A stretch of 5,072 nucleotides of DNA from Flavobacteriaceae bacterium (GTDB lineage: Bacteria > Bacteroidota > Bacteroidia > Flavobacteriales > Flavobacteriaceae). The notes under the pieces are model-generated. The model was not told where the DNA came from. It searched no databases and saw only the letters and a program-made list of their open reading frames with translations. The stretch is taken from assembly GCA_030633225.1 (NCBI GenBank), contig DAOVTF010000170.1, positions 1 through 5,072 of the forward strand. The letters are read 5' to 3'. The translations under genes and the position numbers were made by a program. Shown piece after piece: positions 1 through 4,763 of this stretch. Positions within the stretch are counted from its first letter, which is position 1. Every line of letters starts with the position of its first letter.

Positions 1-502
1 CATCCATATTAAAAGCAACTCTAGGTAAATATCCAAAATCTTCTAATAAAGTGAACAAAGGAAAAAATATAGCCATTGGAGGTAACATTACTGCAATTAC
101 CCAAGCTACTGCCAAATAAACGCCATCAATTAAGAATCCATCTAACCACCACGGCATACCAATACTTAATGCCAAGTTTTTTAATATGGGATGGATATTA
201 TTTAATAATAGATCGGCTAACATTGCTGATGGATAATTTGCTCCTTCAATAGTCAACCAAAGAATTACACCTAAAATTAAAAACATGATAGGAAAGCCCC
301 AAGTTTTACTAGTTACGATCTTATCAATTTTACGATCTAATCTAAATCGTTTATTTTGATTTTCTGTACTTACAGAAGATTTCGTAATTTCTGAAGCATC
401 AGCATAAATTCCTTCGGCCAGATTATCATGAAAATCATCGCCAATTTGCCACCTTAAATCATTGGAAAGGTCTATAATTTTATCTATTGAATTGTCATCC
501 AT
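1..502 (-). CDS. feoB: FeoB ferrous iron transporter, membrane core (partial, C-terminus beyond window)
   Basis: This is the permease half of the FeoB ferrous iron transporter, which moves Fe(II) across the inner membrane. The first 167 residues are visible. Residues 1-60 are hydrophilic and correspond to the end of the helical region and linker that follow the G domain in one-piece FeoB proteins (EGIYADASEI at 30-39, then DRKIDKIVTSKTWG). A first membrane segment covers about 69-85. The Gate-type motif GANYPS is at 87-92, and a second hydrophobic stretch runs over about 122-152, ending in the FeoB signature LLEDFGYLPRVAFN (152-165). The ATG at 502-500 is separated from the TAA of the G-domain gene by one base, and its frame is closed by a stop about eight codons upstream, so this start is well determined. 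It is the fourth gene of the feo operon. The split from the G domain looks like genuine gene architecture, not a random lesion, because both halves are intact at the junction. Confidence 0.93.
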   Translation of the reverse strand, partial: MDDNSIDKIIDLSNDLRWQIGDDFHDNLAEGIYADASEITKSSVSTENQNKRFRLDRKIDKIVTSKTWGFPIMFLILGVILWLTIEGANYPSAMLADLLLNNIHPILKNLALSIGMPWWLDGFLIDGVYLAVAWVIAVMLPPMAIFFPLFTLLEDFGYLPRVAFNMD

Positions 503-503
503 T

Positions 504-1268
504 TTAAACAAATTCTCCAGCTTTTAAAGCATTAATAATTTTGTTATCTCCCTCTAATAATCGAAATGCTATCCAACGACTATTTGAAATATTAGGAAAT
601 TGATTCTCTATTTCTGTACTTAAAGTGTCGACTGCTTTTTGAATATTATCTGGTACATTTTTTATTCGATGAGGTTTGCAAATAATTTTCCCACTTGCCA
701 CTTCACTTATGGTTTGAATAAGATCAGGTATTCCTTCATTAAATCTTGCGCTTGTTGGTACAACCGGTATTCCTAAGTCGCGTGCAAGAGTTCTTTCATC
801 AATTTCAATCTTATTCCGCTTAGCTTCATCCATTAAATTCAAACACAACACAGCTTTATCTGTAATTTCTAAAATCTGTAAAACTAAATTTAAGTTTCTT
901 TCTAATCTACTTGCATCAACAACAATAACGGTAACATCTGGTTTTCCAAAAAGGATAAAATTACGTGCAACTTCTTCATCTTGTGAAGTTGAAAGCAAGG
1001 AATAAGTTCCCGGAAGATCTACCAGTTTATATTTTTGGTTATTGTATTCAAAAGCTCCTTCGGCTCTAATAACAGTTTTACCCGGCCAATTTCCTGTATG
1101 TTGACGCAAGCCTGTTAAAGCATTGAAAACAGTACTTTTTCCTGTATTTGGATTTCCTGCTAAAGCAATAACAAAGTCGAAATTATCAGTATTTACACCT
1201 AATTTTTTAAGACCATCTGCATTAAAATGAGAACATGTTTCACAAGCGCTATTTGCTTTTTCACTCAT
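504..1268 (-). CDS. feoB: FeoB G-protein domain encoded as a separate protein
   Basis: This 254-residue protein is the cytosolic GTPase part of FeoB without the membrane core. GTP-binding motifs are complete: G1 GNPNTGKS at 38-45, a G2 threonine (T65) in GNWPGKTV, G3 DLPG at 84-87, G4 NLMD at 144-147 and G5 TSA at 172-174. N41 matches the G1 asparagine linked in other FeoB proteins to potassium-stimulated GTP hydrolysis. Residues from about 195 to 240 form the start of the helical GDI-like region ([10 protein letters not shown] at 232-241), whose remainder appears to continue in the next gene. The N-terminal extension carries a CxxC pair (C9, C12) followed by H14. The protein is expected to sit on the cytoplasmic face and associate with the separately encoded core to control iron passage. 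The start lies three bases after the preceding stop codon, and the stop lies one base before the core's ATG, which favours translational coupling. Confidence 0.94.
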
Positions 1269-1271
1269 TAC

Positions 1272-2291
1272 TTAAGTTTTTTGAATTAAAATTTTTGATG
1301 CTTGATCATTTCGTAAAGCAATGCTAGTGCCTTTAACCAGATAAGCTTTTGGGTTTTGTAAAGGACTTAAAAGATCAATACTGATTTCAGTTCCTTTTAC
1401 AAAACCAAGATCTAATAATCTCCTTCTGTTTTCTCCTCTACATTCCTTAGAAATTCCAACTATTTTAGCAATTTCTTCTTCTTGTAAGCTTGATAAGCGA
1501 ACTTTGTTTTCTTCAACTATTACATCTTTTTCAAGAAGCGCTACGGTAATATTTGCAGCAACAATTGGTGCTAATTTAAATTCTTCACCTTCAGAATAAA
1601 AAACTATTCTTTTAGTACTATTCTCAACTATTCTTATTTGAGAACCTATATGAATATTTTCTGCAAGAATCTGTTTATAAATAACATCGGGTTCATCTTC
1701 AATATGTGTTATTTTTCCTATACAGCTTTCCGCCAATGAAGATAAAGGCACACCATTTACAGTTGCAATTTTTCCTTGACTAGTTGGAATCGGATCTCCA
1801 TGAGGATCAAATACTGGATTTCCTAATTGAGATGCTAATAAGTCTGTTTCTTCATGACTCAATTTATGCTCCATTTCCTCAGCTCTTCCATGCCATTCCA
1901 TTTTATCAAAACCTGTTTTCTCAGCTAAGTATTTTTCCCATAATCTATGTACTCTTACAATTCGCAAAGCATAATCTCTACCTGAATTTGTTAATTTTAA
2001 AAAATCTCCTTCAAATTGTATTAATTCATTTATTGTCATTTTATTAATTGCACTAATAATATCATTATCATTAAATTTCAAAGCGTCAGTTAAATTGTTG
2101 ATATTAGCTTCTTTTCCTGAATTTTCATAATGATATAATTGTTTTAATACATCTTCAATAACCGTCTTTTCATTTACTCTAAAACTATTCTTTACGATCC
2201 AAAACCATCCTTTTACTGGCCTGAATAGTAGATAAATAAATACAGAAAGTGTTAAAAATATAAGCAAAGCTGTAAGTGGATTATACTGCAT
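1272..2291 (-). CDS. Membrane-anchored DtxR-like metal sensor fused to a FeoA domain
   Basis: This 339-residue protein combines parts normally found apart. A single hydrophobic segment (about 7-23) is followed by R24, K27 and K34, so the rest should face the cytoplasm. Residues about 43-110 resemble the winged helix of DtxR/MntR regulators. Residues 110-170 resemble the metal-binding and dimerisation domain, with H115, E119, H134, E138, E141 and H142 in the family spacing and the hallmark FDPHGDPIP at 161-169. Residues about 179-254 look like the SH3-type domain of DtxR proteins. Residues about 266-339 form a clear FeoA domain (RRRLLDLGFVKGTEI at 289-303, then a SPL...AYLVKGTSIALR pattern). 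FeoA is the small cytosolic partner of FeoB, and no separate feoA gene is visible. The presumed recognition helix (about 75-86, NDNDIISAINKM) is acidic, unlike that of the soluble paralogue, so DNA binding is doubtful. I infer a metal-sensing accessory subunit of the split FeoB transporter; a membrane-tethered repressor is the alternative. Confidence 0.88.
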   Translation of the reverse strand: MQYNPLTALLIFLTLSVFIYLLFRPVKGWFWIVKNSFRVNEKTVIEDVLKQLYHYENSGKEANINNLTDALKFNDNDIISAINKMTINELIQFEGDFLKLTNSGRDYALRIVRVHRLWEKYLAEKTGFDKMEWHGRAEEMEHKLSHEETDLLASQLGNPVFDPHGDPIPTSQGKIATVNGVPLSSLAESCIGKITHIEDEPDVIYKQILAENIHIGSQIRIVENSTKRIVFYSEGEEFKLAPIVAANITVALLEKDVIVEENKVRLSSLQEEEIAKIVGISKECRGENRRRLLDLGFVKGTEISIDLLSPLQNPKAYLVKGTSIALRNDQASKILIQKT

Positions 2292-2293
2292 AT

Positions 2294-2947
2294 CTATATT
2301 TTTATATTTAAGTTTTCGGCAACTTTTTTTGAAACTACTAAATGGTGTGTTTTGGTTTCTAAATGAATCGAGTTGTCAAAAGGCTCTATATCTACCACTT
2401 TAATTTTATCTCTAAGAGCTAAATTTTTCTTAGTCAAATACTTTAAAAATGTATCAGATGAATCTTTTAAATTATCTATAACGCCTTTTTGACCAACTTT
2501 TAAATTCAATAGATTAATCGTTTTAGTAATCATTATTTTTCCATCTTTATCTGGAATTGGATCTCCATGTGGGTCAAATTTTGGATACTTTAAAAATGAT
2601 TCTAATCTATCAATAAGGGTTTCAGATTTTATATGCTCTAATTGTTCAGCCATTTCATGTACTTCATCCCACTTAAATTTTAATTCCTTAACTAAAAAAT
2701 ATTCCCATAACCTATGTTTTCTAATTACCTTTAAAGCAACTTTTTTTCCTTTTGATGTTAGTTGAACTCCTTGATATTTTTTATAATCAACCAAATCTTT
2801 AACCGCTAATTTTTTTAACATATCGGTTACTGAAGATGGTTTTGTTTGCATCTTTTTTGCAATCAAATTAGTAGAAACATTATTTTGAAATTCTAATTCT
2901 AGAACGTAGATAGACTTTATATAATTCTCTTCAGCTTGTGAAAACAT
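2294..2947 (-). CDS. DtxR/MntR-family metal-dependent transcriptional repressor
   Basis: This 217-residue soluble regulator has the full DtxR-family layout. The winged helix-turn-helix covers about 5-70, with a typical recognition helix KPSSVTDMLKKL at 36-47 and the wing ending TSKGKK at 64-69. The metal-binding and dimerisation domain covers about 70-135, with H78, E82, H97, E101, E104 and H105 and the hallmark FDPHGDPIP at 124-132. A C-terminal SH3/FeoA-like domain covers about 147-217. E101 stands where corynebacterial DtxR has a cysteine and Bacillus MntR has a glutamate, and N8 stands where those have Met or Asp, so the metal cannot be assigned from sequence alone. Position as first gene of the feo operon favours iron. 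It probably represses the operon, including itself, through the palindrome just upstream. Its stop is two bases before the next gene's ATG. The start matches the usual N-terminus of the family. Confidence 0.93.
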   Translation of the reverse strand: MFSQAEENYIKSIYVLELEFQNNVSTNLIAKKMQTKPSSVTDMLKKLAVKDLVDYKKYQGVQLTSKGKKVALKVIRKHRLWEYFLVKELKFKWDEVHEMAEQLEHIKSETLIDRLESFLKYPKFDPHGDPIPDKDGKIMITKTINLLNLKVGQKGVIDNLKDSSDTFLKYLTKKNLALRDKIKVVDIEPFDNSIHLETKTHHLVVSKKVAENLNIKI

Positions 2948-3077: not shown

Positions 3078-4139
3078 TTAATCCTTAACTCTTTTCCATC
3101 TAAGAGTTCCAATCATCCAATTAGGTAATGATTTATTTGGGTTTCTATTTTGTAAGTTAAAATTCAATCCTAATTTTTTAATAATCGGAACTTTATGAGT
3201 TTCTACAAATTCAATTGGAATTCCATCTGGATCAGATATATAAGCAAAATGCCCTGCAGCTTCACCCATATCAAAAGAATTTGCACTATCAACAGTAAAT
3301 GGAAATCCTTTTGCTTTTACTTCATCGCGTAAAAATTCCATGCCAATGGTATCAAAACAAATATGAATAAAACCAAGATCACCCCAAATTCTATTTTTAT
3401 ATATATCACGTCCTTTTTTATCAATTAACTGGATCAATTCTATTTGGGTAGGACCATATAAAGGAGCAAATCCACCACTACGCTTATTTGAATGTTTTAA
3501 TAATACTCTTCTAACTTTTTTATGCCCACCAGGCAAACCAGAAAAATCATCAAAAACGCCTGTTTCATCATATACTATCTCATCATACATTAAAATATCT
3601 TGATAAATCTTTAACGATTTGTCAAGATCTGAAACTCCAATTATTGCTCCATAAATCCCCCCGGTTACTGCTTTACTTTTTTCAAACAAATAATCATCTT
3701 CTACAATCTGGAATAAATTTTCAAACGGATCTTTTATAAAAAAATGCTGTTTTTTATTAGGAGATGATTCTAATTTCCCAAGAACATTTAATTTATCCAA
3801 TTGCATTTTCTTAAAAGCACTAAGTGTATTTAAACTCTTAACTTTTGCTACAAAAATTCCTAAATCTCCAAGTTCTGGTTCAAAATTTGCTTTTTCAGGT
3901 TTTTTCCCAGTATGCTGCCAAATTTCTAAACCTCCACCTGATTGCATATTAAATGCCAGTACTGCATGTCTTTTTCGTGTTTCACCATTAGTATAATGAA
4001 GCATTAACTCAGCTACAGCTTCATCTTCAAAAACTTTGATATCAAACCCAAAATTCTTTCTATACCATTTCCATGCTTTATGCACATCTTCAACGCCAAC
4101 TCCAATTTGTTGAATTCCTGTAATTGTTTTTTTTTTCAT
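3078..4139 (-). CDS. VOC-superfamily (glyoxalase/dioxygenase fold) protein, two modules
   Basis: This 353-residue protein contains two vicinal oxygen chelate modules, at about 8-150 and 160-315. The repeated pattern is a VxDVxKAWKWYRKNFGF or VSDLDKSLKIYQDIL helix entry, a GLEIWQ or IELIQL strand, and a closing KDPFENLFQIVED or SDPDGIPIEFVE strand. In the second module E234, H259 and E310 occupy metal-ligand positions, but the first-strand ligand position appears to be glycine (G164). The first module has Q11, E72 and Q144 at the comparable places. VOC proteins include glyoxalases, ring-cleaving dioxygenases, 4-hydroxyphenylpyruvate dioxygenase and resistance proteins; the substrate here cannot be named. 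No signal peptide is seen, so it is probably cytosolic. The frame remains open for 20 more codons up to 4199, but those residues do not resemble the fold and would overlap the possible promoter, so the ATG at 4139 (MKKKTITGIQ) was chosen. It appears to be a single-gene transcription unit. Confidence 0.85.
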   Translation of the reverse strand: MKKKTITGIQQIGVGVEDVHKAWKWYRKNFGFDIKVFEDEAVAELMLHYTNGETRKRHAVLAFNMQSGGGLEIWQHTGKKPEKANFEPELGDLGIFVAKVKSLNTLSAFKKMQLDKLNVLGKLESSPNKKQHFFIKDPFENLFQIVEDDYLFEKSKAVTGGIYGAIIGVSDLDKSLKIYQDILMYDEIVYDETGVFDDFSGLPGGHKKVRRVLLKHSNKRSGGFAPLYGPTQIELIQLIDKKGRDIYKNRIWGDLGFIHICFDTIGMEFLRDEVKAKGFPFTVDSANSFDMGEAAGHFAYISDPDGIPIEFVETHKVPIIKKLGLNFNLQNRNPNKSLPNWMIGTLRWKRVKD

Positions 4140-4168
4140 TTTGATTAAATCGTTGTACTTTATTGTTT

Positions 4169-4199
4169 CAAAGTGTAAATAACGGCTAAAAATAATCAA
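4169..4199 (-). promoter_or_regulatory. Possible promoter of the VOC-protein gene
   Basis: On the minus strand, TTG (4199-4197) is followed after 19 bases by TACACTTTG (4177-4169). This resembles the Bacteroidota -7 element TAnnTTTG but has one extra base between TA and TTTG. A start of transcription near 4163 would leave a leader of about 25 bases before the chosen ATG at 4139. The match is imperfect. Confidence 0.3.
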
Positions 4200-4328: not shown

Positions 4329-4763
4329 TCAAATTGGGTTCACTTTCATAATCTCTTTTTGAAATTCTTCTAAACTGCAATTTTCAATATCAATATGAAC
4401 CGCTTGAATAACAATATCATCTACATTTTTAAGAGAAAAAGCTAATCCAATAACTATCTTTCTTAAAGTTGAGACTTCCATAGATCGCATTTTATGATCT
4501 GCAAAAACCATTTTTAACAAATCAAATAATCTCTCTATACGCTCTTCACAACCTAATTGTGCTCGTATTGGGTAATATTCAGGATCTTTAAAAATAGCCT
4601 TAAAATTATCATCTGTTATTTGATATTTCTTGGCAATAGCTTTTAACAACTCTTCTTCTTCATTAGAAATTTCACCATCCGATTTTGCTATTTTTACAAT
4701 ATTTGCAAAATGACTGATATTCCTTTTTTGATCTCCACTTAAATAAATATCTGCAATAGTCAT
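4329..4763 (-). CDS. TerB-family (DjlA N-terminal-like) helical protein
   Basis: This 144-residue, all-helical acidic protein resembles the TerB/DjlA-N fold. The characteristic segment is IVKIAKSDGEISNEEEELL (about 23-41), matching the family pattern of a helix, then DGxIxxxE, then another helix; the DGEI loop with following glutamates may bind a divalent cation. A second helical half follows (RIERLFDLLKMVFADHKM at about 76-93, and on to 140). TerB domains occur in tellurite-resistance clusters and in many stress-associated or membrane-surface proteins, but a lone TerB-like protein does not show tellurite resistance, and no other ter genes are visible. No signal peptide or membrane segment is seen, so a cytosolic location is likely. 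The gene diverges from mfd, with about 148 bases between the starts, and ends at a strong terminator. A near-consensus -7 element TACATTTA (4791-4784) lies 20 bases upstream of the ATG, without a clear -33 partner. Confidence 0.75.
   Translation of the reverse strand: MTIADIYLSGDQKRNISHFANIVKIAKSDGEISNEEEELLKAIAKKYQITDDNFKAIFKDPEYYPIRAQLGCEERIERLFDLLKMVFADHKMRSMEVSTLRKIVIGLAFSLKNVDDIVIQAVHIDIENCSLEEFQKEIMKVNPI

Follow-up and report, generated by a model that had tools for sequence, protein, structure and literature searches.

A predicted membrane-anchored DtxR-FeoA protein encoded beside a split FeoB may act as a post-translational metal gauge

Feedback on metal import has mostly been described for control at the DNA level. 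The window studied here, by which we mean the whole stretch of 5,072 bp analysed from a Flavobacteriaceae bacterium, raises the question of what a relative of metal-dependent repressors does when it is tethered to the membrane, ends in a FeoA domain and is encoded directly before the transporter FeoB. The genes concerned form a tightly packed operon in the order mntR, TM-DtxR-FeoA gene, feoB_N and feoB_C (Table 1). The ATG of feoB_C at position 502 is located one base past the feoB_N stop, and feoB_C is cut at base 1 by the contig end. The mntR product contains a single FeoA-like domain (Pfam, E 6.6e-9). On the minus strand, mntR is adjoined by a gene for a two-domain protein of the glyoxalase/dioxygenase superfamily (3078-4199), which is a candidate operon link only. 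Another contig of the same bin (C112, locus L142) contains an ordinary feoA (76 aa) and feoB, and the bin hence carries two Feo systems.

Table 1. Positions of the features identified in the window.
Feature	Position	Strand	Description and evidence
mntR	2294..2947	-	Soluble DtxR/MntR-family regulator, 217 aa, intact DNA-binding domain; PF01325 E 2.8e-15, PF02742 E 5.8e-32
TM-DtxR-FeoA gene	1272..2291	-	339 aa, ATG start; Pfam, AlphaFold2, PDB fold matches, 101 other loci
Predicted TM helix, residues 5-22	2226..2279	-	AlphaFold2 helix; hydrophobic N-terminal stretch in other loci
Juxtamembrane PxxG and winged-helix domain, residues 25-100	1992..2219	-	Fold kept in the model
DtxR metal-binding/dimerisation domain, residues 101-170	1782..1991	-	PF02742; ligands present
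First SH3/FeoA-like domain, residues 178-252, with H196, D199, E200	1536..1760	-	Weak FeoA match, conserved residues, fold
C-terminal FeoA domain, residues 264-337	1281..1502	-	Pfam FeoA E 2e-21
feoB_N	504..1268	-	G domain and first part of helical domain; PF02421 E 8e-62, PF17910 partial
feoB_C	2..502	-	Remaining helical domain and membrane core; TIGR00437 E 2.6e-14
Predicted MntR operator, palindrome TTTTAG-N6-CTAAAA	2974..2991	.	27-44 bases upstream of the mntR start

A preliminary description of the window had read the 339-residue chain as an N-terminal transmembrane (TM) segment followed by a DtxR winged helix, a metal domain, an SH3-like domain and FeoA. Pfam and AlphaFold2 bore out this layout, the single TM helix and the fold being predictions. 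Pfam detected Fe_dep_repr_C at residues 101-170 (E 1e-23) as well as the FeoA domain, and the SH3-like domain at about residues 178-252 corresponds to a second, weak FeoA match (21.4 bits against a cut-off of 23). The AlphaFold2 model (pLDDT 91.6, based on an 87-sequence alignment) is composed of the TM helix, a helix formed by residues 29-57, a winged helix (residues 64-100), the dimer/metal domain and two SH3/FeoA domains. Twin C-terminal FeoA domains, a trait of the PgMntR type, are hence present; the second is clear and the first is under the cut-off, and both SH3 folds are modelled. A joint of six residues connects the TM helix to the first DtxR helix in the model, and because basic residues follow the TM helix the remainder of the protein is predicted to be cytoplasmic. 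The winged-helix and dimerisation fold of the DtxR/MntR repressors was recovered both by AlphaFold2 and by the PDB matches, and the winged-helix fold of the model superposes on DNA-bound DR2539 (8pw0) with an rmsd of 2.1 Å; unlike these soluble repressors, however, the protein has a predicted TM helix. For the C-terminal domain the fold match listed is 7r7b, the FeoA of a natural B. fragilis FeoAB fusion. Whereas FeoA is known as a small stand-alone protein, it here constitutes the C-terminal portion of a much longer chain. Membrane anchoring is predicted for other loci too, as an N-terminal hydrophobic stretch is present in 97 of 101. The four loci without a clear stretch are L013, which has a stop inside the matched stretch, L060 and L097, for which the start was perhaps mis-chosen, and L062, which falls just below the cut-off.

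The protein belongs to a large family. A protein search yielded 4936 relatives at E<=0.001 among 7998 candidates scored, a number that includes soluble DtxR proteins. Among the 120 matches listed, 116 are 339-350 aa long, and the same pair of Pfam domains was present in every one of the 120. At least 586 encoding stretches were found in a scan of GTDB species genomes; the best 80 of these come from Bacteroidota, Ignavibacteriota, Chloroflexota, Acidobacteriota, Gemmatimonadota, Calditrichota, Planctomycetota, Verrucomicrobiota and KSB1, and also include one Methylococcaceae bin. By this measure the family appears to span about ten phyla, several of which rest on one or two metagenome bins. The 101 loci compared with the window consist of these best 80 of at least 586 plus 21 from close relatives, and are counted as loci, not as genomes, since some genomes are represented twice (e.g. 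L011/L038 and L018/L042). In the set thinned at 85% identity (set A2, 87 rows) PF04023 was matched in 87/87 family members, with feoB adjacent.

That FeoB is truly split, as had been claimed for the window, holds for the family as well. FeoB is known as one chain comprising G domain, helical domain and membrane core, but downstream of the TM-DtxR-FeoA gene it is split in 88 of the 101 other loci. Our parser scored the remaining loci as fused (8), as feoB_N alone near a contig end (3) or as without feoB (2). One of the latter two, L112, actually shows both feoB pieces, and in the other, L087, the contig ends 138 bases on; all loci but L087 have FeoB of the same type downstream. The break falls within the helical domain joining G domain and pore (domain limits as given in PMC4847171), at the place where the eight fused relatives carry a variable linker. 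Its recurrence in 88 loci, and its position in a loop that is filled by this linker when FeoB is fused, rule out a frameshift or assembly error. The phase of the second frame relative to the first also counts against such an error, since all three phases occur among 86 split loci (40, 25 and 21). As a separate observation, feoB_N and feoB_C are each in two frames at L045, and feoB_N is in two frames at L108, due to gene decay or sequencing error.

Co-occurrence with split feoB, a check put forward in the preliminary description, proved near-perfect. We used a sample of 198 Bacteroidota genomes including that of the window, in which the protein was scored at E<=1e-40 and a G domain was assigned to type 2 at E<1e-85 and 56-100% identity to that of the window; no G domain of the next class scores better than E 4e-51 or exceeds 54% identity. 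TM-DtxR-FeoA was present in 26 of these genomes and the type-2 G domain in 30, and in 26/26 carriers the latter is located directly downstream by coordinates. Likewise, among 60 close relatives the 22 genomes with the protein, here taken at E<1e-100 since weaker matches are MntR paralogues, are exactly those with type-2 FeoB. It could be argued that this pairing simply reflects joint inheritance of the operon, and that TM-DtxR-FeoA has no role in transport at all, as the genes nearly touch and so travel together. We give this hardly any credence, because the FeoA domain has been conserved, with a mean pairwise identity of 59%, because the pairing holds over about ten phyla, including the eight fused-FeoB loci that have no same-strand mntR just upstream and yet keep the TM-DtxR-FeoA protein, and because plain FeoA fills the place when the protein is absent.

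This last point follows from the four genomes with type-2 FeoB and without TM-DtxR-FeoA (G104, G184, G200 and G225), in each of which type-2 split feoB is directly preceded by a frame for FeoA alone (85-125 residues). Loci L136-L139 show plain FeoA instead of TM-DtxR-FeoA in this position. As plain FeoA interchanges with TM-DtxR-FeoA, the sensor half is dispensable for type-2 FeoB. In a FeoB tree built from 60 of 93 assembled rows, and rooted on ordinary FeoB, the 47 type-2 rows are placed apart from 13 ordinary FeoB (SH-aLRT 100; quick search with a long-branch warning). On this tree the partner (FeoA or TM-DtxR-FeoA) changes once among the type-2 rows and twice when all rows are considered, and the split or fused state changes five times among the type-2 rows. 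Plain FeoA together with type-2 split FeoB is possibly the ancestral state, with weak support in the tree.

The preliminary description had named H115, E119, H134, E138, E141 and H142 as metal ligands. All six are near-invariant in the 102 sequences, but the list had missed D47, which is D in 98 of them and which, by the offset taken from structural matches, aligns to DtxR Met10, the position of MntR Asp8. Invariant in 102/102 are H115, E119, H134, E141, H142, D162, H164, D166, H196 and D199, and the position of E138 is occupied by E (87), D (13) or C (2). The family hence has the ligand set D/E/E/H (D47, E138, E141 and H142), which corresponds to the manganese-type set known for MntR of B. 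subtilis, DtxR having Met/Cys/Glu/His (PMC4805248). For DtxR domains in general, binding of Fe(II) or Mn(II) had been cited in the preliminary description. The manganese-type ligands make iron doubtful as the sensed metal, and judged by these residues Mn(II) is the likelier of the two. This would mark type-2 FeoB as a FeoB type that may carry manganese. A scan of neighbouring genes aimed at metal identity covered 43 of 48 downstream genes (the five longest were dropped) and 34 of 45 upstream genes (two long ones, eight short ones and one near copy were dropped), and did not point to one particular metal. The commonest families were Phenol_MetA_deg downstream (5/43), which we take to be outer-membrane barrel-like, and TerB upstream of mntR (5/34; 4/34 with DnaJ); the window itself encodes a TerB-like protein (4329-4763, minus strand). 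A gene inside the operon at L035 (5172-5981) encodes a possible outer-membrane protein, perhaps a metal channel, and the same may apply to the downstream Phenol_MetA_deg genes.

Two explanations in which the metal conveys no signal have to be weighed against this pattern. First, the protein might be a static adaptor, in which a dimeric DtxR scaffold at the membrane keeps a pair of FeoA domains next to the separate G domain and any bound metal serves the structure without acting as a signal. For a split FeoB such an assembly factor would be plausible, plain FeoA can substitute for the whole protein, and no effect of FeoA on GTPase activity is reported in the tests described in PMC10353542 and PMC4847171. 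A scaffold would not need primary and ancillary ligands, D47 among them, that stay near-invariant over about ten phyla, though, nor would it explain why the protein is kept in the eight loci in which FeoB is fused, and we consider this explanation unlikely. Second, the DtxR ligands together with H196, D199 and E200 might take ions from the pore and pass them on as a chaperone would. The SH3 domain and the DPHGDP loop do contain many conserved ligand-type residues, and feoB_N has an N-terminal CxxC (C9 and C12, before the G1 motif) that is invariant in 89/89 type-2 G-domain proteins, that of the window included, and that is possibly an extra metal or redox site. The DtxR-fold chains matched are mostly named repressors or regulators, however, and we judge such a relay to be very improbable.

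Does the protein still read DNA? The 68 loci that encode both TM-DtxR-FeoA and MntR allow a direct comparison. In TM-DtxR-FeoA the recognition helix (residues 75-87) is the least conserved part, with a mean pairwise identity of 24%. The helix-turn-helix (HTH) as a whole has 26%, the metal domain 66%, and the first and second FeoA domains have 52% and 59%. The corresponding values for MntR of the same loci are 64% for the recognition helix, 52.5% for the HTH, 62% for the metal domain and 36% for its FeoA-like domain. The MntR helix keeps S/A39, T/S41, D42 (62 of 68), M43 (68), K/R46 and L47 (68). In the recognition helix of TM-DtxR-FeoA the hydrophobic positions are kept, and the commonest polar residue is K84, found in 33/68. 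The conserved DNA-reading helix of the DtxR/MntR repressors is thus lacking in the family. An acidic recognition helix, as had been described for the window protein, is correct for that protein but is ruled out as a family trait by a mean net charge of -0.07 over the 68 loci: the helix is unconserved, not acidic. The Pfam DNA-binding domain was absent from the matches of the window protein even at E<=1, and at E<=0.01 PF01325 was matched in 19/87 family members (best 2e-5) versus 58/58 MntR paralogues (best 1e-19). Homologues with a basic and conserved recognition helix had been named as evidence that would speak against a transport sensor; the search for them, with 24% identity and 19/87 matches as its outcome, did not refute that idea.

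The gene for a dedicated regulator is located next door: mntR lies directly upstream on the same strand in 68/101 loci. The palindrome TTTTAG-N6-CTAAAA was first noticed in the window and then scored across 69 mntR upstream regions, the window included, in which it is exact in 17, has one mismatch in 30 and is worse in 22. At most one mismatch was therefore found in 47/69 regions, as compared to 1.4/69 for a shuffled control. This distribution fits control by soluble MntR of its own operon at the palindrome, the putative operator. We dropped the attempt to derive an MntR regulon from the palindrome, and count only its position before mntR. WTTTAG-N6-CTAAAW occurred 11 times versus 3 for the reversed control in the genome of the window, but it was not in excess of that control in four other genomes (4/17, 3/11, 6/12 and 32/38).

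The membrane-DtxR module is not unique to Feo, as some related Bacteroidota genomes carry ABC metal permeases with a C-terminal DtxR domain (L167:1223-2509, L168:1809-3059 on the minus strand, L169:964-2217, L170:1914-3200 on the minus strand, L171-L181, L191 and L192). TM-DtxR-FeoA is not attached to such a permease; it has a single TM helix, and FeoB downstream. A junction of the form P..G.17.[ED][DNH]..[KR] right after the TM helix is found in 89/101 TM-DtxR-FeoA loci and in 16/17 ABC-permease fusions. In a DtxR tree (126 columns; a quick search on few columns) TM-DtxR-FeoA and the ABC fusions are together on one side (46 rows, SH-aLRT 97) opposite 29 soluble DtxR rows. These sequence comparisons suggest that the module is common to both transporter types. 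The permease was matched in 22/148 genomes, the match extending to where the DtxR part ends in 13 of them, and 0/22 are among the 26/198 genomes with TM-DtxR-FeoA, the two genome samples being different. Loci L182-L186 contain shorter permease frames (379-405 aa) in which the match ends in the DtxR region (query 368-374 of 428), perhaps reflecting a truncated DtxR tail. The net charge of the HTH is -1.3 for TM-DtxR-FeoA (102 rows), +3.3 for MntR (66 rows) and +4.8 for ABC-fused DtxR (17 rows). As the HTH of the ABC-fused proteins is basic, membrane attachment alone does not explain the loss of DNA-binding charge, a loss that these charges place in the Feo-linked line.

These data bear on a further explanation, namely that the protein is a transcription factor that acts while tethered or after proteolytic release, like YtgR from chlamydial YtgC. 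YtgR represses its own operon (PMC5599777), the membrane-to-DtxR junction is the same as that of the Bacteroidota permease fusions, and the winged helix is intact in the AlphaFold2 model. The recognition helix is unconserved, though, and the HTH is net negative where that of the ABC-fused relatives is basic; moreover, the work of a repressor is already assigned to the neighbouring MntR with its conserved palindrome, only the 6-residue joint separates the TM helix from the first DtxR helix, and the consensus from G28 to E46 offers few conserved residues as a cleavage motif. We consider a transcription factor of this kind decidedly unlikely.

With moderate confidence, then, we favor the view that TM-DtxR-FeoA is a relative of DtxR and MntR acting as a post-translational metal gauge that regulates split FeoB via its C-terminal FeoA. 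In essence this had been proposed in the preliminary description, and it is the best reading of the evidence, although the module is also found in ABC permeases. The sequences themselves show the domain order, the kept ligands, the decay of the HTH, the pairing with type-2 FeoB and the replacement by plain FeoA, and these are the main grounds for the gauge; metal binding, FeoA-FeoB contact, the identity of the metal and the direction of control are inferred. Proteins of the DtxR family bind metal between their N-terminal helix and dimerisation domain, which then move less freely against each other; for MntR this is discussed in PMC4805248. By analogy, a rise in cytosolic Mn(II) (or Fe(II)) would lead to binding at D47, E138, E141 and H142 and at the ancillary ligands, and the bound metal would clamp the first DtxR helix, which is continuous from the membrane anchor, onto the dimerisation domain. 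Clamping would change where FeoA sits with respect to the pore (feoB_C) and the separate G domain (feoB_N), and this shift would turn uptake down, while soluble MntR would do the slower transcriptional job at the palindrome. Inhibition at high metal is a guess from the logic of homeostasis. Such a metal-driven repositioning of FeoA on a FeoB with a separate G-domain chain is likely because the DtxR helix continues from the predicted anchor and the chain terminates in FeoA, and also because FeoA stabilises the GTP-bound G domain in the B. fragilis FeoAB fusion (PMC8980893) and is predicted in H. pylori to lock the hinge between the G and membrane domains of FeoB (PMC10353542). The break in the present FeoB lies in the helical domain between these two. 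The gauge is further supported in that the transcriptional role appears to be filled already by MntR. Counting against it are the winged-helix fold, which looks intact in the model, and the 19/87 members that still match the DNA-binding domain weakly. Also counting against it is YtgR, a membrane-fused DtxR that binds DNA after release (PMC5599777), the family having its junction in common with permease fusions of this kind. In addition, the role of FeoA may lie in assembly of the complex and not in gating, as the published tests mentioned above saw no effect on FeoB GTPase, and the interchange with plain FeoA shows that this FeoB can do without the sensor half. More tentatively, and with rather more doubt than belief on our part, a transcription-factor fold may have been put to new use on transporters: one membrane-DtxR module may plug into two unrelated classes of importer, ABC permeases and split Feo, the Feo line having wholly given up DNA to gate a Mn(II)-importing FeoB allosterically via FeoA.

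On this more tentative view, one operon would combine two readouts of one metal, a slow one through MntR and DNA and a fast one through the tethered protein. The action of FeoA on FeoB is still open (PMC8980893 and PMC10353542), and since cultured marine bacteria possess a natural FeoA with a likely metal sensor of its own, carriers including Tamlana agarivorans, Lutibacter oricola and Maribacter polysiphoniae, the question of whether FeoA gates FeoB can be put to a direct test. Many proteins named 'metal-dependent transcriptional regulator' would also gain a different likely role.

The open-access full texts, to which the search was confined, yielded no account of a DtxR-FeoA protein anchored in the membrane, nor of this split FeoB. 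FeoA-DtxR fusions had been removed from the survey data set of PMC8980893. The B. fragilis FeoAB fusion described there resembles the present system in that FeoA is kept beside the FeoB G domain by covalent linkage, but it has neither a DtxR part nor an anchor of its own, and its FeoB is unsplit. The Mn-dependent repressors 5zr6 and DR2539 (8pvz and 8pw0) differ in having one SH3 domain or none in the structure, and lack both the TM helix and the second FeoA domain.

PgMntR of Porphyromonas gingivalis (PMC4805248) is similar in that it is a DtxR protein that ends in two FeoA domains and shares its operon with a FeoB-type transporter (FB2, manganese), and its H166, D169 and E170 are spaced like H196, D199 and E200 here, as judged from the printed numbers and not from an alignment. 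The recombinant dimer binds DNA at its own operon, however, Cys occupies the position of E138, and it is not known to carry a TM anchor. A DtxR encoded near an FeoB of ~815 aa in genomes of family f30 was rejected as a stand-in for PgMntR, since by length and alignment it has one FeoA-like domain. Compared by architecture, and not with the chlamydial sequence, YtgC-YtgR (PMC5599777) is alike in having a DtxR joined to the membrane beside a metal importer; in that case, though, the importer is an ABC permease, FeoA is lacking, and YtgR is cleaved from the permease fusion, binds DNA and represses its own operon. The Bacteroidota ABC fusions, which group with TM-DtxR-FeoA and have the same PxxG-x17-[ED][DN] junction, differ from it by their basic HTH (+4.8 versus -1.3). 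As far as these sources go, the nearest described proteins are PgMntR, with its twin FeoA domains, DNA binding and manganese FeoB, and YtgR.
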